Shown here in pieces: positions 23,285 to 63,314 of a stretch of DNA of 64,000 bases. The stretch spans positions 868,001 to 932,000 of the forward strand of contig NZ_RSEB01000001.1 in the NCBI RefSeq assembly GCF_003933745.1, read 5' to 3'. Within the stretch, counting starts at the first letter, position 1; every line of letters starts with the position of its first letter. The notes under the pieces were generated by a model. The model worked only from the letters and a program-made list of their open reading frames with translations, had not been told where the DNA came from and searched no databases. Both the position numbers and the translations under genes were made by a program. Origin of the DNA: Glycomyces terrestris. GTDB lineage: Bacteria; Actinomycetota; Actinomycetes; Mycobacteriales; Micromonosporaceae.

Positions 23285-23352
23285 GCGTCAGGAAAACCGA
23301 GGCGTCAGGGAACCCGGGGCGTCAGGAGACCCGTGGCGTCAGGGAACCCGTG
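23285..23352. repeat. Four tandem 17-bp repeats
   Basis: GCGTCAGG-(A/G)(A/G)A-(A/C)CCG recurs at exact 17-nt steps (GCGTC at 23285, 23302, 23319, 23336). It lies just past the stop of the membrane-protein gene ending at 23366. Four copies with 1-3 differences each; non-coding. Confidence 0.75.
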
Positions 23353-53889: not shown

Positions 53890-53893
<4 letters not shown>

Positions 53894-54741
53894 GCGACAT
53901 CGACGGGCGCGCGGTCGCCAAGGAGATCAGGGCCGGCGTGGCCGCGGCGGCGGCGAAGCTGCGCGAGAACGGGACCGCACCGACGCTCGCGGTCGTCGTC
54001 CCGACCGACGACGAGGGCACGGCCTGGTACGTGCGGTCGATCAAGAAGGCCGCCGAGAAGGAGGGCGTCGACTGCCGCATCGAGCAGCTCGACGCGCCGG
54101 GCCGCGACGAGATCGTCGCGAAGCTCCAGGAGCTGTCGGCCGATCCCGGCGTGCACGGGATCATCTGCCAGACGCCGCTCCCGGAGGGAGTGACGCTCGC
54201 GGAGGTCGGCGGGCACATCAGCCCGCTCAAGGACATCGACGGCGCGAACGCGACGAACCTGGGCCGTCTCGGCGCGGGCCTGCGCACGTGGGCCCCGGCG
54301 ACGGCCGCGGCGGTGCTCGAGCTGCTCAAGCACGAGGAGGGCCTGACGCTGTCGGGCGCGCGCGCCGTGGTGGTCGGCCGGTCCACAGTGGTCGGCAAGC
54401 CGGCGGCGCTGCTGCTGCTCAACGAGTCGGCGACGGTGACGGTCTGCCACTCGCGCACGAAGGACCTCGCGGCGGTCTGCCGCGAGGCCGACGTGCTGGT
54501 CGCGGCCGTGGGCCGCGCGGGCATGATCGGCGCGGACTTCGTCAAGCCGGGCGCGACCGTGATCGACGTGGGCACCAACCCGACCGACGACGGCGGCCTG
54601 GTCGGCGACGTCGACTACGCGGCCGTCTCCGGCATCGCGGGCCGCCTGACCCCGGTCCCCGGCGGCGTCGGCCCGGTGACGACGGCACTCCTGCTGCGCC
54701 ACACGGTCGAAGCGGCGGAGCTGTCCAAGACCCACCCGTAA
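53890..54741 (+). CDS. folD: Methylenetetrahydrofolate dehydrogenase/cyclohydrolase
   Basis: 283 residues. Bifunctional NADP-dependent 5,10-methylene-THF dehydrogenase and methenyl-THF cyclohydrolase. Motifs: YVRSIKKAAEKEGV (catalytic Lys region), GIICQTPLPEGV, ISPLKDIDGANATNLGRL, the nucleotide site AVVVGRSTVVGKPAALLLLN, VLVAAVGRAGMIGADFVKPG and C-terminal LTPVPGGVGPVTTALLLRHT. Slightly unusual: the first motif lacks the standard YV-x3-K-x2 spacing of E. coli FolD but keeps Tyr and Lys. A terminator follows at 54802. Confidence 0.94.
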
Positions 54742-54839: not shown

Positions 54840-54871
54840 CGTGCACGCTGAAGACCTGCGGAAGTCCTGGG

Positions 54872-55486
54872 GAAGGCCCCCCGGTTTTCCAAGCTACACA
54901 GGCGAACCTGAAGGGGAGCTGAAGCGGGCCGCCGTACCGGGACGGCCGCCGGGGGCACGAACGGCCGGGCTCACCGCCAGGGAAGGGCCCCCGGTCTCGA
55001 AGCTAGCGCAGCGAACCTGAAGCAGAGCTGAAGAAGCCGACCGCCCCACCGGGACCGCCGCCGGGTGCACGAACGGCCGGGCTCACCGCCAGGGAAGGGC
55101 CCCCGGTCTCGAAGCTAGCGCAGCGAACCTGAAGCAGAGCTGAAGAAGCCGACCGCCCCACCGGGACCGCCGCCGGGTGCACGAACGGCCGGGCTCACCG
55201 CCAGGGAAGGGCCCCCGGTCTCGAAGCTAGCGCAGCGAACCTGAAGCAGAGCTGAAGAAGCCGACCGCCCCACCGGGACCGCCGCCGGGTGCACGAACGG
55301 CCGGGCTCACCGCCAGGGAAGGGCCCCCGGTCTCGAAGCTAGCGCAGCGAACCTGAAGCAGAGCTGAAGAAGCCGACCGCCCCACCGGGACCGCCGCCGG
55401 GTACGCGAACGGCCGGGCACACCGCCAGGGAAGGGCCCCCGGTCTCGAAGCTAGCGCAGCGAACCTGAAGCAGAGCTGAAGCGGGC
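54872..55486 (-). repeat. Tandem array of six dispersed-repeat units (112-bp period)
   Basis: The word GAACCTGAAG begins at 54904, 55013, 55125, 55237, 55349 and 55461, i.e. steps of 109, 112, 112, 112 and 112 nt. The three units from 55013 to 55348 are identical and the next has about four changes; the first is diverged. Read on the minus strand each unit contains CTTCAG-N5-CTTCAG, then 11 nt, then TAGCTT, then a run CCGGGGGCCC or similar. 112 is not a multiple of three, so the frame rotates and the array is not coding. Related copies lie at 57333-57479 and 62588-62641. It fills the gap between convergent folD and the 55501 gene. Confidence 0.9.
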
Positions 55487-55500
55487 GATTCGAATCGGGG

Positions 55501-56247
55501 CTAGTGGGTCTGGGTGCGTTCGAGGCAGGCGGCGAGGGCCGGGAGGAAGTCCATGAAGCGGGCGCGGGAGCGGTCGTCGTCGCCGGGGGCGGCGTCGCTG
55601 CGCCAGGTGGTGAGCCAGCCGCCCTTGGCGGCCCAGGACCAGCGGAAGAGATCGAGGCCGGAGCGGTCGGCCTCGGCGGCGAGCGCTGCGGCGAAGCGCG
55701 GGTCGGCGGTGTGAAGGCGGCGGGGCACGGGCCGGAAGAGGCGGTCGACGGCCTGACCGAGTCGGCCGCGGTGGCGCGCCTGGGGCCGCGGGGGCTCGGT
55801 AAGCGCCACGGCCGCGTACCGGTGCCGTTCGGGGTGCCAGGTCGCGGCCAGCGCGGAGTCGCCGTCGAGGAGGCGGTGCTGGACCGTGTCGGGTCGGTCG
55901 AGGCGCAGCGGCGCGGCGTTGAAGCGCAGCTGGTAGCGGGAGCCGGCGGCGGTGGCGTCGACGGCGCAGAACCCGAAGGAGGTCCGCCCGTCCCAGGCGC
56001 CGCGGGTCCAGCCGCGCACGCAGGCCACCGGGAAGCCGAGGGCGCCGAGGGCGGTGAGGACCTCCGCGGTCTCGCCGTCGCAGTCCTCCGGTTCGAGCTC
56101 GGCCCGGAACTCGAGGCGGTAGCGGCGCGCGAAGCGCTGCCAGCCGGCGACGGCCGCGCGGCCCTCGCGTTCGGTCGCCGCGTCGCGGCCCCGGTCGAGC
56201 ACCACGCCCGCCCAGTCGATGCCGCCATGGCCGACCTGACCCACCAC
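55501..56247 (-). CDS. Hypothetical protein
   Basis: 248 residues, no recognised domain and no transmembrane segment. Rich in Trp/Arg, with GRAAVAGWQRFARRYRLEFR, VACVRGWTRGAWDGRTSFGF, YQLRFNAAPLRLDRPDTVQH and a C-terminal AADRSGLDLFRWSWAAKGGW. The GTG at 56247 is chosen because GGGAGG lies 5 nt upstream; a GTG at 56271 would add eight residues but has no such site. Codon use matches its neighbours. Its stop directly borders the repeat array. Confidence 0.6.
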   Translation of the reverse strand: MVGQVGHGGIDWAGVVLDRGRDAATEREGRAAVAGWQRFARRYRLEFRAELEPEDCDGETAEVLTALGALGFPVACVRGWTRGAWDGRTSFGFCAVDATAAGSRYQLRFNAAPLRLDRPDTVQHRLLDGDSALAATWHPERHRYAAVALTEPPRPQARHRGRLGQAVDRLFRPVPRRLHTADPRFAAALAAEADRSGLDLFRWSWAAKGGWLTTWRSDAAPGDDDRSRARFMDFLPALAACLERTQTH

Positions 56248-56420
56248 AGGATCCTCCCACTGTCGATTCACGAGCAATGTACGGCGGCCGGGCCGGGGCC
56301 GACTCCCCCGATTCGTGCCAGATGGGCGTTCGAAGCGGTCCCGGCTAGTGGCGGATACCCGACAGACAGGAGCGACTACTGCACGTAGCGTTAAGAGTTC
56401 GCACGCAAAGGAGGTCACGA

Positions 56421-56807
56421 ATGACACGTCGTCTTGCCTTCGTGGCGACCGTCGCCGCCATGATCCTGGCGGTGTCGAGCCCGGCGATGGCGTTCCAGCA
56501 CGACCGGGTCCACAACCCGGTGCTGCACTGGGCGCTGGACATCGCGACCCTCGCCATCGTGGTCGCGCCGATCTGGACGGCGCTGCTGTGGGGGCGGGGC
56601 CGGAGCAAGTGGCTGCTGGTCGGCCTGATCGGCGTCGTGCAGGTGCCGGTGGCGATCCTCGGGTTCTCACCGGGTGCCTCGGCCCTGTTCGCGGGCAGCG
56701 GACTGTTCCTCGGACTCGCGGTCACGGTCGCGGCGATCGTCTACACGCGGCGGGTGACCCGCCTGGAGAGCGCCCAGGCGAACGCCCAGGTCGCGGAAGG
56801 CGACTGA
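56421..56807 (+). CDS. Small exported or membrane protein
   Basis: 128 residues. N-terminal signal-like helix (LAFVATVAAMILAVSSPAMA, possible cleavage after AMA), then three hydrophobic segments (WALDIATLAIVVAPIWTALL, WLLVGLIGVVQVPVAILGF and ALFAGSGLFLGLAVTVAAIV) and a short polar tail. AAGGAGG lies 6 nt before the ATG. Function unknown. Confidence 0.65.
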   Translation: MTRRLAFVATVAAMILAVSSPAMAFQHDRVHNPVLHWALDIATLAIVVAPIWTALLWGRGRSKWLLVGLIGVVQVPVAILGFSPGASALFAGSGLFLGLAVTVAAIVYTRRVTRLESAQANAQVAEGD

Positions 56808-57269
56808 AGCCGGCCCGGCAGGGGCCGCATCGGCCGGGCGCGCGGTGACCGCGCCCGCCGTCCCGGCCGCGCCGGGGGTGACGAGGTACCGCCTGGCGCG
56901 GTCCCCCGAGCCGAGCTCGAACCCGCTCGCGGTGTCGCCGTCGCGGAGGACCCGCAGGAGCGGGCAGCCGGCGAAGGGGCCGTCGAACCCGCCCGTGGCG
57001 GGGTCGCGGTAGGCGTGCCAGGAGCAGTGCTCCTCGCCGACCCAGCCCCAGGCCCGGTGGGTCTCGGCTCCGGCGAACCGGTACACGCCGACGCTGAGCA
57101 GCCGGTCGCCGACCGGGCGCCGGTAGAAGTCGGCGTCGAGACCCGCCACCGGGACGCCGTCGAAGTCGACGTCGGCGAGGGTCTTGTGATACGTGAAATC
57201 GGCGAGATGCGGGATCTCGCCGATTTCCTTCTCTTCGAGAGGTTCAGCCTCTGCATGAGCCACGGGCAC
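56667..57269 (-). CDS. Hypothetical protein, doubtful ends
   Basis: An open frame of 200 codons. The middle (FTYHKTLADVDFDGVPVAGL, DADFYRRPVGDRLLSVGVYR, HRAWGWVGEEHCSWHAYRDP) looks like real protein, unlike typical antisense frames. Both ends are suspicious: the GTG start lies inside a 38-nt hairpin (57261-57298), the next residues are encoded by another perfect hairpin (57196-57226), and the last 47 codons run antisense to the preceding membrane-protein gene. It may be a remnant truncated at its 5' end. Function unknown. Confidence 0.4.
   Translation of the reverse strand: MPVAHAEAEPLEEKEIGEIPHLADFTYHKTLADVDFDGVPVAGLDADFYRRPVGDRLLSVGVYRFAGAETHRAWGWVGEEHCSWHAYRDPATGGFDGPFAGCPLLRVLRDGDTASGFELGSGDRARRYLVTPGAAGTAGAVTARPADAAPAGPASVAFRDLGVRLGALQAGHPPRVDDRRDRDRESEEQSAAREQGRGTR
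57196..57226. terminator. Perfect hairpin, possible terminator
   Basis: 13-nt arms AAATCGGCGAGAT and ATCTCGCCGATTT with loop GCGGG. It lies in the 5' part of the doubtful gene; more AT-rich than other hairpins here. Confidence 0.4.
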
Positions 57270-57298
57270 GTCCGGTCTAACGACCGGGCGTGCCCGTG
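57261..57298. terminator. Strong hairpin, possible terminator
   Basis: 17-nt arms beginning CACGGGCACG and ending CGTGCCCGTG, with one mismatch and loop TAAC. It lies between the doubtful gene and the repeat copies at 57333. Confidence 0.5.
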
Positions 57299-57332
57299 GT
57301 TGCGCGTTCGCAGTGCTTTGTGGCCGGTCCCG

Positions 57333-57479
57333 CTTCAGCTCCCCTTCAGGAACCCAGCGCTAGGGTTCGAGACCGGGGGCCCACCCCTGGGCTCCGGACG
57401 GCTCTCGCCGTGCCCTCGCTTCAGCTCCCCTTCAGGTTCGCCCCGCTAGGGTTCGAAACCGGGGGCCCACCCCAGCGGC
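57333..57479 (+). repeat. Two copies of the dispersed CTTCAG repeat
   Basis: Copy A: CTTCAG at 57333 and 57344, TAGGGT at 57361. Copy B: CTTCAG at 57419 and 57430, TAGGGT at 57447. Both have an 11-nt period between CTTCAG words and 11 nt from the second word to TAGNNT, followed by TTCGA(G/A)ACCGGGGGCCCACC. The copies are 86 nt apart and point into the 3' end of the phosphofructokinase gene. Confidence 0.85.
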
Positions 57480-57501
57480 CGGGACCGGCCTTCGGTGTGC
57501 G

Positions 57502-58527
57502 CTACACGCCGAAGAAGACCTCGGCGTCGGCGTAGCGCTCGACCGGGACGGTCTTGAGCACGTCGGTGCCCTCGTGGATCGGGATGCGCACCACATTGGT
57601 GCCCTGGAGCGCCATCATCTTGCCGAAGTCGCCCTCGTTGACCGCGTCGGCGGCCTCGAGGCCGAGGCGGGTCGCCAGGACCCGGTCGAACGCGGTCGGG
57701 GTGCCGCCGCGCTGGAGGTGGCCGAGGATGATCGCGCGGGTCTCGATCTCCGCGCGCTCCTTGATCTCCGTCGCGACCCAGTCGCCGACGCCGCCGAGCT
57801 TGACGTGGCCGAACGCGTCGACCTCGCCGTCCTTGAGCACCATGCCGGACTCGGCGTGCGCGCCCTCGGAGACGGCGACGATGGTGGCCTTGCCGGCCTC
57901 CTTGCGCTCCTTGACGAAGTTCGCGACCTTCTCGATGTCGAAGGCGACCTCGGGGATGAGGACGACGTTCGCGCCGCCGGCGATGCCCGCGTGCAGCGTC
58001 ATCCAGCCCGCGTGGCGGCCCATGATCTCGACGACGATGCAGCGGTCGTGCGAGTCCGCGGTCGTCCACAGGCGGTCGATGGCCTCGGTCGCGATGTTCA
58101 CGGCGGTGTCGAACCCGAACGTGTAGTCGGTGCCCGAGAGGTCGTTGTCGATCGTCTTCGGCACGCCGACGCAGTTGACGCCGTCGGCGGTCAGCTTCGT
58201 GGCCACGCCCAGGGTGTCCTCGCCGCCGATCGCGATGAGCGCGTCCACGCCCAGCTCGGCCATGTTCTTCTTGATGGCCTCGACGCCGCCCTCGATCTTG
58301 TAGGGGTTGGTCCGCGAGGAGTGGAGGATGGTGCCGCCCTGGTCGAGGATGCCCTCGACCACGTCCCAGTTCAGCTCCTGGGTGATGCCCTCGATCGGGC
58401 CCTTCCAGCCGTACCGGAAGCCCACGAACTCGTGGCCGTATTCCTTGGTGCCCTTACGGACAGCGGCACGGATGACCGCGTTGAGACCGGGGCAGTCGCC
58501 GCCGCCGGTGAGCACGCCAATGCGCAT
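57502..58527 (-). CDS. 6-phosphofructokinase, pyrophosphate-type
   Basis: Phosphorylates fructose 6-phosphate to fructose 1,6-bisphosphate. 341 residues: N-terminal VLTGGGDCPGLNAVIRAAVR, LIAIGGEDTLGVATKLTADG, VPKTIDNDLSGTDYTFGFDT, EIMGRHAGWMTLHAG and HLQRGGTPTAFDRVL. Two phosphoryl-donor positions are informative: Asp in GGEDT (Gly in ATP enzymes) and Lys in PKTIDND (Gly in ATP enzymes). Both indicate pyrophosphate as donor, making the step reversible, as in the actinobacterial PPi-PFK of Amycolatopsis. AGGGAG precedes the ATG. Monocistronic. Confidence 0.93.
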   Translation of the reverse strand: MRIGVLTGGGDCPGLNAVIRAAVRKGTKEYGHEFVGFRYGWKGPIEGITQELNWDVVEGILDQGGTILHSSRTNPYKIEGGVEAIKKNMAELGVDALIAIGGEDTLGVATKLTADGVNCVGVPKTIDNDLSGTDYTFGFDTAVNIATEAIDRLWTTADSHDRCIVVEIMGRHAGWMTLHAGIAGGANVVLIPEVAFDIEKVANFVKERKEAGKATIVAVSEGAHAESGMVLKDGEVDAFGHVKLGGVGDWVATEIKERAEIETRAIILGHLQRGGTPTAFDRVLATRLGLEAADAVNEGDFGKMMALQGTNVVRIPIHEGTDVLKTVPVERYADAEVFFGV

Positions 58528-58662
58528 GCGTCTAACTCCCTAGAAGTGAGGACTGTTAACTGGGCGGCCTCATTGCCGAAACACCACCCACCATATATCG
58601 GGGCCCGGGAGCGGCGACCAGGGGTTCCGGGGCGCGATCAGGGATGGGACGCCCGGGAGCGC

Positions 58663-59211
58663 TCAGTAGTGGGACTCGACGGCGCCCGCGCGGTCGCCGC
58701 GCACCGCCTCGAGCGCCTTCCAGCGGGCGAGGTTGAGCTTCGCGTCGGTCAGGGCGTCGTGCATGTCCGCGTCGGGCGTGACCGGGAGCTCGGGCCGGCC
58801 CAGGTCCTCCCAGCGCTGGCGCAGGTCCTTCGTCATCCGCGGCAGGGCCCGCGGCAGCTCCGGCATCGTGCCCCACAGCTGCGCGAGCACGACGTGGTCG
58901 TACGCGCCGATCCACGCCCACAGCTCCACCCGCTCCCCCGGGTGGCTGCCGGTCTTGCGCCGCACCGGCTCGACCAGGAACTCGTACAGCTCGTCGCGGA
59001 TCGTGGCCCGGTCCTTCCACAGGTGGCTCGAGGGGGCCGGGAGCTTGTCGAGGACGTTGCGGCGCACCCACTCGATCGCCCGGGACGGGTCGAACTCGGT
59101 CGACACGGCGTAGTACTCGCGGCCGTGCTCGTCGACGACCGCGATCGAGACCAGGTCGATGGTGCGACCGTCCTCGATGAACTCGGTGTCGTAGAAGTAG
59201 CGGTACGCCAC
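58663..59211 (-). CDS. 3'-5' exoribonuclease, DEDDh family
   Basis: 182 residues. RNase-T-like exonuclease: RYFYDTEFIEDGRTIDLVSI (Asp and Glu of motif I), WAWIGAYDHVVLAQLWG (motif II Asp) and PDADMHDALTDAKLNLARWK (motif III His/Asp). It closely resembles the mycobacterial Rv2179c-type polyadenylate-specific exoribonuclease. GTG start at 59211 because the family sequence begins A-Y-R-Y-F-Y. Confidence 0.88.
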   Translation of the reverse strand: MAYRYFYDTEFIEDGRTIDLVSIAVVDEHGREYYAVSTEFDPSRAIEWVRRNVLDKLPAPSSHLWKDRATIRDELYEFLVEPVRRKTGSHPGERVELWAWIGAYDHVVLAQLWGTMPELPRALPRMTKDLRQRWEDLGRPELPVTPDADMHDALTDAKLNLARWKALEAVRGDRAGAVESHY

Positions 59212-59540
59212 GCATCGGCCTTTCGTATGATCACGGGCGGCCTGTTCGGCCCGAATCGGGAGCCGCCCGTATGTCGCCGGACTGGAGTCGACGCTACGCC
59301 ATACGATCAGGCAGCCGGAATCTGACCTCGCAATCCGCCTATGAGCAGCGCGATACCGGACAATAGACGCGAAAGCACGTAGACTCCATCGTACGCTCGG
59401 CCGAGCGACAAGTGCACCGTCCGGACACACGACCCAACGGAGCGTGAAGTTTCCGACACCGAGCCCTGTACAACTACGGAAAAGACAGCGATCATCGGAG
59501 GGGACCCGCGGACCCGGGACCCACCGAAGGGGGAAGAACC
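59212..59540. other. Divergent promoter region, exoribonuclease / Crp-type regulator
   Basis: 329 nt. It holds an imperfect dyad ACGGGCGGC ... GCCGCCCGT (about 59234-59270) and related words CGTATGATC (59223) and CATACGATC (59300), possible regulatory dyads. TAGACT at about 59391 could be a -10 for the plus-strand regulator. No gene seen. Confidence 0.4.
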
Positions 59541-60230
59541 ATGGGTGTCAGCCCATCTGAAGACCCGCTTGCAGGCGTCGCCATGTTCGCCGGCCTGGAC
59601 TCGCAGGCGCGGCGGCAGATCGCGGGGGTGGCGGTACAGCGCCACTACCGGCGTGGGCACCTGCTGTTCTTCGAGGGCGAGCCGGGCGAGTCGCTCATCA
59701 TGATCCGCTCCGGCGCCGTGAGCGTCTTCCGGACCGCCGCCACCGGCGAGCGGGCGATGCTCCACGTCGCGCGCGCCCCGGAGGTCCTCGGCGAGGTCTC
59801 GCTCCTCGACGGCTCGCCGCGGTCGGCCAGCGCGGAGGCGCTGGAGGACACGTCGGCGCTGGCGCTGGCGCGGTCGTCGTTCCTGGAGCTGGTGCACGGG
59901 AACCCGAAGATGCTCGACGCGGTGCTGCGGTCGATGGGCATGATCGTGCGGCGCTTGACGGAGCAGTCCTCGGACCACGTGTTCCTGGACCTGCCGGGGC
60001 GGGTGGCGAAGACCCTGGTGCGGTTGGCGGAGCAGCACTCCTCGCCGATGACGACGATCGAGTTGAACCAGACGCAGCTGGCGGAGATGGCGGGCGGGTC
60101 GCGCCAGAGCGTGAACCAGGCGATCGGGATCTTCGCGAACCGGGGCTGGCTGCGCACGGAGGGCCGCAAGATCGTGGTGGTGGACCTGCCGGCGCTGCGG
60201 CGGCGGGCGGGCTTCGGCGGGCCCGAGTAG
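59541..60230 (+). CDS. Crp/Fnr family transcriptional regulator
   Basis: 229 residues: N-terminal cyclic-nucleotide-binding beta-barrel (about 15-125) with YRRGHLLFFEGEPGESLIMI and LGEVSLLDGSPRSASAEALE, a long dimer helix, and a winged HTH (about 165-225) with TTIELNQTQLAEMAGGSRQS and VNQAIGIFANRGWLRTEGRK. The cAMP phosphate Arg region reads SPRSASAEAL, close to Crp consensus, so nucleotide binding is possible. No Cys cluster, so not an Fnr-type oxygen sensor. AAGGGGGAAG precedes the ATG. Confidence 0.92.
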   Translation: MGVSPSEDPLAGVAMFAGLDSQARRQIAGVAVQRHYRRGHLLFFEGEPGESLIMIRSGAVSVFRTAATGERAMLHVARAPEVLGEVSLLDGSPRSASAEALEDTSALALARSSFLELVHGNPKMLDAVLRSMGMIVRRLTEQSSDHVFLDLPGRVAKTLVRLAEQHSSPMTTIELNQTQLAEMAGGSRQSVNQAIGIFANRGWLRTEGRKIVVVDLPALRRRAGFGGPE

Positions 60231-60365
60231 GAGCGGTCCCGCGGCGGGACGCGGGCGGTGCTGCGGGGGCGGTGCGGCGGCGTCCAGGGTGCGGATGCGG
60301 TGCCGATGCGGTGTGGTGCGGTTCGGCGGTGGAGCGGGTGCGGTGCGGCCGCCCGGTGCGGGCGG

Positions 60366-60420
60366 TACGACGGCCCGGAGGGAAGTGCAGTGCGACGGCC
60401 CGGAGGGAAGTAAGGTGCGG
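60366..60420 (+). repeat. Two tandem 25-bp repeats
   Basis: CGACGGCCCGGAGGGAAGT at 60368 and again at 60393. The preceding 100 nt are rich in imperfect GTGCGG words. It fills the gap between convergent Crp-type and acyltransferase genes; no terminator hairpin stands out. Confidence 0.65.
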
Positions 60421-60431
60421 CGCGGAGCGGG

Positions 60432-61115
60432 TCAGCCCTGCTGTCGGCGTTCCTTGACCTTCGCGGCGTACTCGTCGACGTAGTCCTGGCCGGAGAGCTC
60501 GCGGAGGGCGTCCATGACCTCGTCGGTGACGGCGCGTTCGATGAAGCGGTCGCCCACGAGGTCGCGGTAGCGGTTGAAGTCGTGCGGGGGCCCGAACTTG
60601 ATGCGGACGCGGCCGATGCGCGGGATGCGTCGCCCGATCGGCTGGAGTTCGCCGGTGTTGAGCATGGCGACGGGCACGACCGGGGCGCCGGTCTGGAGGG
60701 CGAGGCGGGCGACGCCGGTCTTGCCGCGGTAGAGGCGCCCGTCGGGCGAGCGGGTGCCCTCGGGGTAGATGCCGAAGAGGCGGCCTTCGGAGAGGACGCG
60801 CTTGCCGGTGTCGAGGGAGACGTTGGCGGCGTCGCCTCCGGCGCGGTCGACGGGGATGGCGCCGACGGCGTTCATGAAGGAGCGCACGAACCAGCCCTTG
60901 AAGCCGGTGCCGGTGAAGTATTCCTCCTTCGCAATGAAGGTGACCCGGCGTTTGAGGACCAGGGGCATGAAGAAGGAGTCGGTCACGGCGAGGTGGTTCG
61001 AGGCGAGGATCGCCGGGCCCTCCTCGGGCACGTGCTCGAGCCCGTCGACCTTCGGGCGGTAGACCACCCACAGCAGCGACCCCAGTGTCGCCTTGAGAAA
61101 CCACCACATGATCAC
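60432..61115 (-). CDS. 1-acyl-sn-glycerol-3-phosphate acyltransferase (PlsC-like)
   Basis: 227 residues. Acylates lysophosphatidate to phosphatidate at the membrane. Acyltransferase motifs: NH-x4-D in ILASNHLAVTDSFFMPLV, AKEEYFTGTGFKGWFVRSFM, GRLFGIYPEGTRSPDGRLYR (motif III) and GAPVVPVAML (motif IV). An N-terminal hydrophobic helix (MWWFLKATLGSLLWVVY) anchors it. The GTG at 61115 lies 7 nt after TACGCT (61128-61123), a leaderless arrangement; an ATG two codons later is also possible. Confidence 0.9.
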   Translation of the reverse strand: MIMWWFLKATLGSLLWVVYRPKVDGLEHVPEEGPAILASNHLAVTDSFFMPLVLKRRVTFIAKEEYFTGTGFKGWFVRSFMNAVGAIPVDRAGGDAANVSLDTGKRVLSEGRLFGIYPEGTRSPDGRLYRGKTGVARLALQTGAPVVPVAMLNTGELQPIGRRIPRIGRVRIKFGPPHDFNRYRDLVGDRFIERAVTDEVMDALRELSGQDYVDEYAAKVKERRQQG

Positions 61116-61319
61116 GCGTTCAAGCGTATCGGCATCGGTCAATCCAGCGGACGGCGTCCGGCCCGCACGGGGCGGCGGGGCCCTCAGCGGTGGCACGGTG
61201 GGGCGGGCGCGTGCGAGAATGGGCACGCAGCGCGAAAAGGGACCTCCCGGTCGCGGCCCAGGTGCCGCGTCGACCACCGGTCGGCCCGGCGCCCGTCATT
61301 CATCGTTCCAGGAGGCGAC

Positions 61320-62090
61320 GTGTCGATCGATTCCGAGGAGTTCGCGTTCGACCTCGGCCCTGACGCCAAGGCCACGATGCTGCTCTGCCACGGGTTCACG
61401 TCAGACCCGGCGTCGATGCGGCCGTGGGGCGAGCACCTGCGGGACGCGGGCTTCAACGTCATCGCGCCGCTGCTGCCGGGCCACGGCCAGACGTGGCAGG
61501 TGCTCGCGAAGTCGACGTGGCAGGAGTGGTACGGCCGCCTGGAGGAGGCGCTGGACGAGGCGCTGGCGCTGGGGCGCCCGGTGTTCGCGGGCGGCCTGTC
61601 GATGGGCGGGTCGCTGTGCCTGCGGCTGGCGGAGCAGCGCGGCGGGGACCTCGCGGGGCTGGTGCTGGTGAACCCGGCGATCTTCGACGACAAGCCGCAG
61701 GGGTTCCTGGCGCCGGTGCTGCGGTACGTGATGCCGAGCGTGGCGGCGATCGGCTCGGATCTGAACAAGCCCGACGTGCGGGAGAAGACGACGGCCCGGA
61801 CGCCGGTGGCGGCGTACGCGTCGCTGCGGCGGCTGTGGAAGGTGACGCGGCCGGAGCTGGCGCGGGTGACGGTGCCGCTGCGGATCTTCACGAGCGCGCA
61901 GGACCATGTGGTGAGTCCGCGCAACAGCGCGGTGGTGCGGGCCGGGGTGCGGTCGAAGGACGTGGAGTCGACGGTGCTGCCGCGCAGCTACCATGTGGCG
62001 ACGCTCGACTATGACGCGGAGACGATCTTCGCGGGGAGCGCGGAGTTCATGGAGCGGCAGCTGGCGAAGGCACGGAGCGTCCATGACTGA
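61320..62090 (+). CDS. Alpha/beta hydrolase, carboxylesterase/monoacylglycerol-lipase type
   Basis: 256 residues. Oxyanion region MLLCHGFTSDPASMRPWGEH, nucleophile elbow GGLSMGGSLCLRLAE (Ser in G-L-S-M-G), acid in FTSAQDHVVSPRNSAVVRAG and His in LPRSYHVATLDYDAE. The length and HGFTSDP/ SYHVATLDYD pattern match Est30-like carboxylesterases common in actinobacteria. GTG start with AGGAGG 5 nt upstream. Followed with an 8-nt overlap by a membrane-protein gene. Confidence 0.9.
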   Translation: MSIDSEEFAFDLGPDAKATMLLCHGFTSDPASMRPWGEHLRDAGFNVIAPLLPGHGQTWQVLAKSTWQEWYGRLEEALDEALALGRPVFAGGLSMGGSLCLRLAEQRGGDLAGLVLVNPAIFDDKPQGFLAPVLRYVMPSVAAIGSDLNKPDVREKTTARTPVAAYASLRRLWKVTRPELARVTVPLRIFTSAQDHVVSPRNSAVVRAGVRSKDVESTVLPRSYHVATLDYDAETIFAGSAEFMERQLAKARSVHD

Positions 62091-62583
62091 GCGGGGCGAG
62101 GAGCCTGAGCGCAGCGAGCAGGAGGACGGCCGCGAGGGCGAGCTCCTGCCCGAGGACGTGGACCGGCGGTTCAACGAGCTCATCAAGGACCTGGAGGACC
62201 CGGGCCTGGGGCTGACGAAGGCGTACGGCGCGGAGGAGCATCCGGCGGACGCCGTGCCGATGACGCCGCCGGCGTCGGCGGCGTCCGATGAGGAGCCGGG
62301 CCTGCTGGAGCTGTGGGACGCGGACCTGCCGGACGACGAGGAGGACGACTACGATCCTCCGGAGCCGCCGCCGGTGCCGTGGCCGAGCCTGCCCGCGGTG
62401 GGCGGGGTGCTGCTCGTGATCGCGGGCTTGGCGCTCCTGGTGAACCCGGGCATCGCGCCGCTGGGCACGAACCCGGGCCGCCTGGTCGGCTTCTGCGGGT
62501 TCCTGATCGGCGTGTGGCTCCTGATCAGCCGCCTCCGCCCGGACAAGGACGCCGACGACCCGGACGACGGCGCGGTCGTCTGA
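62083..62583 (+). CDS. Acidic single-pass or two-pass membrane protein
   Basis: 166 residues. The first 105 are very acidic and Pro-rich (DDEEDDYDPPEPPPVPWPSL at the end), followed by two hydrophobic helices (PAVGGVLLVIAGLALLVNPG and LVGFCGFLIGVWLLISRL) and an acidic tail. Start overlaps the hydrolase stop (ATGACTGA). Family unknown to me; similar small proteins follow esterase genes in actinobacteria. Confidence 0.75.
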   Translation: MTERGEEPERSEQEDGREGELLPEDVDRRFNELIKDLEDPGLGLTKAYGAEEHPADAVPMTPPASAASDEEPGLLELWDADLPDDEEDDYDPPEPPPVPWPSLPAVGGVLLVIAGLALLVNPGIAPLGTNPGRLVGFCGFLIGVWLLISRLRPDKDADDPDDGAVV

Positions 62584-62587
62584 CGCG

Positions 62588-62641
62588 CCGCTTCAGGTCC
62601 CCTTCAGGTTCACCCCGGTAGCTTCGAAACCGGGGGCCCTT
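62588..62641 (+). repeat. Single copy of the dispersed CTTCAG repeat
   Basis: CTTCAG at about 62590 and 62601, then 11 nt to TAGCTT, then CGAAACCGGGGGCCCTTCCCT. Same geometry as the copies at 54.9-55.5 and 57.3-57.5 kb. It starts a few nucleotides after the stop of the 62083 gene and points toward the 3' end of the convergent gene at 62679. Confidence 0.85.
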
Positions 62642-62678
62642 CCCTCGCCGTCGGCGGGGTCGGTGGTGTGCGCGGCGG

Positions 62679-63314
62679 TCAGTCCTTCTTGCCGGCGGCG
62701 AGCCAGGAGAGGATCGCGTCGAGGAGTCCTTCCGCGCCGGCGCCTTTGAAGACGTCGTCGGGGGAGCCGGCGAAGGTCAGGGGGGCGGTGCCGTAGGCGT
62801 CGGCCACGGCCTGGGCCTCTTTGGACTGGGTCTCGGACTCGGCGACGACGAGGAGCACCGGCGGGGCGCCGACCGGGCGCGGGGGCTGCTTGGGGACCTG
62901 GCGCGGGGAGACGAGCACCAGGCCGGCGGTCGGGTAGCGGCCCGCGGCGAGCGCGGCCCAGGCCGCGCCCTCCTTGTGTCCGATGAGGACGGCCTGGCGG
63001 GGCACGGTGACCGCGGCCTGCACGAGGTCGTGGGCGCGGGCCTCGAGGCCGCCCTCGGCGGCGGGGGTGCCGCCCTGGCCGCGCACGCTCACGGCGGCCG
63101 CGTACCGGCCGGAGGTCGCGATCCGCTTGAGCCACAAGGCGTTGAAGGCCGCCGCGCCGGCGGGGTCGCCGGTGCAGCACAGGACCGGGCTGGCCTCGGG
63201 GTCGTCCTTGATCTCCAGGTCGAAGAGGTCGGCGGGCTCGAAGAACGCGTACTCGCGCTTGACGGGGGCGGGAGCGGGGGTGCGGGCGCGCCGGACCCAG
63301 GCGGCGAGGCTCAT
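62679..63314 (-). CDS. Alpha/beta-hydrolase-fold protein without nucleophilic Ser
   Basis: 211 residues. The fold is suggested by PVLCCTGDPAGAAAFNALWL, VLIGHKEGAAWAALAAGRYP and APPVLLVVAESETQSKEAQA. At the nucleophile elbow G-x-S-x-G reads G-H-K-E-G, with Lys in place of Ser, so classical hydrolase activity is unlikely; a binding or structural role, or an altered chemistry, is possible. Its ATG overlaps the stop of the upstream monooxygenase gene (ATGA). Confidence 0.7.
   Translation of the reverse strand: MSLAAWVRRARTPAPAPVKREYAFFEPADLFDLEIKDDPEASPVLCCTGDPAGAAAFNALWLKRIATSGRYAAAVSVRGQGGTPAAEGGLEARAHDLVQAAVTVPRQAVLIGHKEGAAWAALAAGRYPTAGLVLVSPRQVPKQPPRPVGAPPVLLVVAESETQSKEAQAVADAYGTAPLTFAGSPDDVFKGAGAEGLLDAILSWLAAGKKD

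Follow-up and report, generated by a model that had tools for sequence, protein, structure and literature searches.

We describe here a dispersed repeat of Glycomyces terrestris, seen in a stretch of 64,000 nucleotides (contig NZ_RSEB01000001.1, positions 868,001 to 932,000; hereafter the window), in which a pair of CTTCAG words precedes a -10-like hexamer and a conserved non-coding body. The CTTCAG repeat is a dispersed Glycomyces family, and its copies are probably sibling short non-coding RNA units switched on by two stress regulators. The conserved body and a second, different promoter found in front of it are features that the first-pass annotation of this DNA had missed.

According to the course of events which we infer, each copy would be a small transcription unit. 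A CopR-like regulator of the OmpR family would bind two CTTCAG half-sites located 11 nt apart and bring RNA polymerase to a TANNNT -10 sequence exactly 11 nt downstream, transcription would start just past this -10, and the product would be a short non-coding RNA with a conserved part of about 50 nt; its function and the signals inducing it are likewise predicted. A PafBC/RecA-NDp-type promoter stands before other copies of the same body, so that the pool of sibling RNAs would be supplied by two stress regulons.

The probable CTTCAG promoter and its presumed regulator

Nine exact CTTCAG-N5-CTTCAG pairs are present in the window (Table 1), six on the minus strand and two plus one on the plus strand, just at the three intergenic places to which nine copies had been assigned in the first-pass annotation. 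With up to two mismatches allowed, 10 box matches were obtained versus 1.82 expected and a maximum of 6 in 100 dinucleotide shuffles. The distance from the second CTTCAG word to TAGCTT or TAGGGT is exactly 11 nt in all nine copies, as the annotation had claimed; from the copy layout that it proposed, the box and the spacing hold, while the supposedly invariant tail does not, since the sequence after the -10 varies (GAGACC in the array, GGAAAACCGGGGGGCC in the copy with the box at 54908). The minus-strand copies form an array of 5.5 units of 112 nt with 95% matches, and its copies 2-6 are nearly identical, thus they bring no independent evidence.

Searching the whole genome of G. terrestris revealed 32 CTTCAG-N5-CTTCAG sites versus 1 for the reversed pattern, and 28 of the boxes are followed by an 11-nt spacer and YANNNT versus 0 for the reversed-pattern control, which confirms the proposed dispersed family. 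Copies extend well beyond the window and into related genomes of the genus. For this comparison 61 genomes were used, 22 from Glycomyces and 39 from outside the genus. The box-spacer-(-10) pattern occurs 6-28 times per genome in all 14 Glycomyces genomes bearing the regulator described below, and is absent from the eight without it (Fisher p = 3e-6 for the genus regulator/box table, uncorrected for ancestry); no match was found in the 39 genomes outside Glycomyces, and the reversed control gave 0 across all 61. When the -10 was not required, 9-32 box pairs were counted in regulator-bearing genomes of the genus versus 0-1 in the others, with 0-2 for the control. Literature searches (titles and abstract openings; open-licence texts) gave no description of this repeat family among the matches listed, in agreement with the earlier opinion that it does not belong to a described one.

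The spacing is conserved outside the window as well: among 79 CTTCAG-type copies examined the -10 lies at 11 nt in 74 of the 74 scorable ones, where from several -10 candidates the one nearest 11 nt (or 8 nt for the second promoter type) was taken. The presumed regulator is encoded at C11:209937-210611 of the same genome, beside a histidine kinase gene and divergently from a gene for a PepSY-domain protein, with one box located between the PepSY gene and the regulator/kinase pair. It carries receiver and Trans_reg_C domains, both over cut-off; its best NCBIfam family is TIGR01387 (CopR-like), at 244.1 bits below the cut-off of 279.2, and its best sequence match in the PDB is 1kgs. At E <= 1e-70 a homologue was found in 14 of the 22 Glycomyces genomes, with 84-100% identity. 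The annotation had proposed looking for an OmpR-family regulator with CTTCAG repeats in its own promoter, and such a pair indeed stands 41 nt before the regulator ATG in 13 of the 14 genus orthologues. A pair of opposite direction is present in the same upstream region in all 14 genomes; in G. terrestris, the one genome in which the opposite gene was checked, it faces the PepSY gene. The 11-nt repeat, the 11-nt spacing and the co-occurrence of regulator and sites in 14/14 versus 0/8 genomes make the proposed reading of the CTTCAG units as promoters activated by an OmpR/PhoB-family regulator well supported at the level of sequence.

Among 16 regulator loci read outside the genus, one (in genome G028) had an exact pair, three had near pairs and 12 none. 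At locus L191 and other regulator loci a palindrome-like third site, CCTGAAG-N4-CTTCAGG or similar, was noticed by eye between the divergent promoters. The orthologue in genome G005 (L207, G005:C5:61192-61713) matches from residue 53 only, with CTTCAGG directly before it, and may be truncated or mis-assembled. Three CTTCAG pairs in the G. terrestris genome have no body (L039, L048 and L049 at C8:590994, C1:1096059 and C10:699872); the frames downstream carry MFS_1, PadR and NAD(P)-binding domains, all over cut-off, and may be genes for proteins that belong to this regulon.

The conserved body and a probable second promoter

The body model was built from sequence only, as a 47-row alignment of CTTCAG-type tails. 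From 58 collected copies 10 were omitted as a gene promoter or as truncated or divergent tails (L039, two of L041, four of L042 and three of L088), and one near-identical array copy was dropped. The body spans about 50 nt and begins 6-7 nt past the -10 with both promoter types. It consists, in this order, of an A-rich part, CGGGG, CC, CCC, a spacer and TTCGG-GTGC, after which conservation stops; the 5' part reads AAACCGGGGGCCC..CCC, and the spacer is nearly fixed in length and free in sequence, the distance from CGGGG to GTGC being 37 nt in 83 of 99 scorable tails. The model tallied 203 tails in 16 of the 22 Glycomyces genomes, up to about 25 copies per genome, and 0 tails in 77 genomes of other genera (family sample, stricter filters). 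In 80 loci around pfk genes no body match below E = 0.1 was obtained except for two in G. algeriensis, and the other two named Glycomyces loci in that set were without a match.

Although trained on CTTCAG-type tails only, the model also finds bodies that follow a second kind of promoter (TGTCGGACC type), in which 8 nt separate the motif from CANNNT. Of the 203 tails, 56 lying away from the CTTCAG sites already listed were read; a script assigned 21 to the CTTCAG type and 28 to this TGTC type, and the 7 unclassified ones were recognised by eye as six variants of the TGTC type and one of the CTTCAG type. In 80 loci searched with the model there were 131 body matches, 125 of them distinct: 79 CTTCAG-type, 44 TGTC-type and 2 near-variants, a set which includes the CTTCAG-type tails used in model building. 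One promoter or the other is thus present before 123 of 125 distinct bodies. In the regulator-less genomes G017 and G018 four of five tails were read and all four are TGTC-type. Among the 46 non-CTTCAG rows, TGTC[AG] with the 8-nt spacing was seen in 35 (10 were not scorable and 1 was unmatched), and in all 35 the -10 is CANNNT.

This second promoter resembles the DNA-damage promoter known from mycobacteria, for which the consensus tTGTCRgtg-8 nt-TannnT (RecA-NDp) was given (PMC5656591, consulted in part) and dependence on PafBC reported (RecA-NDp/P1; PMC5656591 and PMC6789036, both in part). The Glycomyces form is TGTCGGAC-8 nt-CANNNT, so the body-linked promoters differ by C instead of T at the first -10 position, and also in preceding a non-coding body. 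The recA gene of G. terrestris itself has the full form, TTGTCGGGG-N8-TACCGT. Genes of the pafBC type are present too: locus L042 holds a PafC-type helix-turn-helix gene and an adjacent WYL/WCX gene near the Pup-ligase gene. With at most one mismatch TGTCGGACCNNNNNGGCANNNTNG has 69 matches in the genome of G. terrestris versus 0 for the control; when 30 of this type were read, a few (L320, L321, L326) lay, by eye, just before a start codon, and several were followed by a CGGGGG stretch without the full body.

One body is 39/42 identical behind the two promoter types in different genomes. An exchange of promoters before one body is only suggested by this, because such identity was reached in 1 of 200 column shuffles and nearest-neighbour bodies mostly have the same promoter type (94 of 115).

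Other tails were noticed behind the same promoter kinds, with the -10 CAGGGT, at L323-L325, L333 and L334 in G. terrestris and at L222 and L365 in relatives. Among them are a CCGGGGGCCCAYCGATGTCCG type and a type with ATACCGGTGG..ATCACATGTCACA; the relatives have a type behind CTTCAG that starts with GTTG.C.GGGG. Several body families may exist. At L042:3550-3977 (C10:791549-791976 of G. terrestris) four CTTCAG units with a different tail stand between a DUF3866 gene and the Pup-ligase gene. The two paf WYL genes, which presumably encode the regulator of the second promoter type, are only about 1.3 kb away.

Alternative readings and genomic context

Several results weigh against short RNAs made under these promoters. 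No consistent structure or covariation of the body emerged from single-sequence folding, RNAalifold or a pair-enrichment scan, and the strongest pair (columns 24 and 28) is isolated. A hairpin of the 3' block, plausible by eye, was rejected as unsupported by the pair scan. There was no gathering-score match in Rfam, the six matches at E <= 1 being all microRNA models far below gathering scores. A constant terminator was not found: stems of at least 9 bp within 150 nt were present downstream of 19 of 125 bodies, slightly more frequently than upstream (12/125), versus 0/125 in shuffled sequences. Copies 2-5 of the array have a weak 3' block, and in copy 2 the match to the model stops at position 42 of 49. 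Finally, homologues of the regulator at E <= 1e-70 (50-79% identity) are present in 25 of the 39 genomes from outside Glycomyces, none of which has the box-spacer-(-10) pattern, so the link between regulator and box is shown for the genus only. Conservation of the -10 and the body argues for real transcription, and the presence of one body behind two promoter types argues for a role of its product or early transcript. Given the lack of a fold, a constant terminator and a gathering-level Rfam match, we rank short sibling RNAs first and a role of the body as DNA or nascent transcript second.

In the latter case the promoters would be real and activated, and the body would act as a pause, start-site or protein-binding region rather than as a free small RNA. 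We regard this as unlikely. In its favour, the body consists of two linear blocks whose distance hardly varies and for which no RNA pairing is supported, and several TGTC-type promoters share the early CGGGGG and not the rest of the body. Conservation, however, extends about 45 nt into the transcribed side, farther than start-region signals usually do, and two unrelated promoter types share the body at the same -10 distance.

The first-pass annotation had also noticed that the copies point antisense into gene 3' ends, and antisense RNA against the adjoining gene would be a further explanation. The three window places are indeed gaps between convergent genes (codon-usage gene calls). Among 86 element clusters, 82 have both neighbours called. 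Of these, 40 lie between convergent genes and 7 between divergent ones, while in co-directional gaps 29 point with the genes and 6 against them; orthologous sites in several genomes were counted more than once. Among 185 background gene pairs, 47 converge and 42 diverge. The elements thus keep away from divergent promoter regions, favour the ends of genes and are mostly not antisense where they are free to choose. The excess of convergent gaps fits antisense action, yet as a rule it fails in the co-directional gaps, in which 29 of 35 clusters point with the genes, and one same body stands at unrelated genes, which makes this explanation improbable.

More improbable still are decoys titrating the response regulator, another suggestion of the annotation. 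Up to 28 box-spacer-(-10) sites per genome, some in tandem, would serve this purpose, but for a pure decoy the box alone would suffice, whereas conservation also covers the -10, its spacing and the body that follows, and TGTC-type units carry the body with no box.

That the copies are a MITE- or REP-like mobile element which carries a promoter and spreads within Glycomyces, also considered earlier, we find hardly credible: they are multi-copy and in places tandem, one body is 39/42 identical behind two promoters in different genomes, and the pfk site is known both occupied and empty (G. algeriensis and G. arizonensis lack the element there), but eight Glycomyces genomes have the element at this very position, and no inverted repeat framing the unit was seen among the 25 longest listed. 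All eight genomes share the 12 CTTCAG letters at the pfk site, while the inter-block spacer averages 0.38 identity, the 25 nt upstream 0.45 and block 2 0.68, the spacer and block 2 values being lowered by block 2 having been set at an earlier GTGC in 2/8. This contrast between box and spacer also counts in favour of the copies being regulated transcription units. Occupation shared by eight genomes, together with strong divergence outside the functional parts, indicates that it is old. The phosphofructokinase encoded in the window shares 96% identity with its counterparts in Glycomyces sp. TRM65418 and G. algeriensis.

Table 1. Copies of the CTTCAG unit and neighbouring genes in the window
Feature	Positions	Strand	Box	-10	Body	Remarks
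Copy 1	54843..54924	-	54908-54924	TAGCTT 54891-54896	54843-54888	last of the array in reading direction
Copy 2	54958..55033	-	55017-55033	55000-55005	54958-54998	
Copy 3	55068..55145	-	55129-55145	55112-55117	55068-55110	weak 3' block
Copy 4	55180..55257	-	55241-55257	55224-55229	55180-55222	weak 3' block
Copy 5	55292..55369	-	55353-55369	55336-55341	55292-55334	weak 3' block
Copy 6	55400..55481	-	55465-55481	55448-55453	55400-55446	first of the array in reading direction
Copy 7	57333..57414	+	57333-57349	TAGGGT 57361-57366	57369-57414	
Copy 8	57419..57502	+	57419-57435	57447-57452	57455-57502	end coincides with pfk stop codon; site with an element in eight Glycomyces genomes
Copy 9	62591..62673	+	62591-62607	TAGCTT 62619-62624	62626-62673	
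Reading frame	53890-54741	+				matches FolD families, below curated cut-offs
Phosphofructokinase gene	57502-58527	-				TIGR02483 over cut-off
Gene	62679-63314	-				sub-cut-off hydrolase match only

Elsewhere in the window, at 23285-23352, there is a 17-nt tandem repeat in 4 copies with the unit GCGTCAGGAAACCCGTG.

Known systems and implications

To our knowledge, the CopR box of Corynebacterium glutamicum is the closest known to the Glycomyces CTTCAG box. In that system an OmpR-type regulator, likewise with a divergent neighbour gene, recognizes the direct repeat TGAAGATTTgaTGAAGATTT, in which TGAAG words 11 nt apart are the reverse complement of the Glycomyces CTTCA words 11 nt apart (PMC3140484, in the part consulted). 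The Glycomyces regulator also scores best in the CopR-like subfamily TIGR01387, yet below its cut-off (244 vs 279 bits). The systems differ in number of sites: C. glutamicum CopR seems, from the same part of that source, to have a single genomic one, while Glycomyces has dozens, most with a non-coding body.

As to the products, we take LhrC of Listeria monocytogenes as the closest working analogue: multicopy short RNAs, dependent on LisRK and induced by envelope stress, which are demonstrated RNAs with stem-loops, a terminator and C-rich UCCC motifs (PMC4132741, consulted in part). The Glycomyces units would share with them the several copies under a two-component-system box, and many bodies contain UUCCC or UUUCCC. 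They differ in having no conserved stem-loops or terminator, in a second promoter type before the same body, and in being known here from sequence alone (comparison with the same part of PMC4132741).

Dozens of promoter-like intergenic repeats, most with the same non-coding stretch, suggest an undescribed family of stress-induced small RNAs, which a structure-based RNA search would probably miss, because no conserved fold was found. More tentatively, the whole may be a modular small RNA system, so far restricted to Glycomyces, in which each copy of one body carries one of two unrelated, exchangeable stress promoters (a CopR-like two-component box or a PafBC-type box) and two stress signals would meet in one RNA pool. 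If the proposed reading is true, the regulon of a so far uncharacterised two-component system of actinobacteria would be readable from sequence, with regulator, site and non-coding units linked by their presence and absence, and Glycomyces would offer a test case for sibling RNA pools built by different stress promoters before one body.

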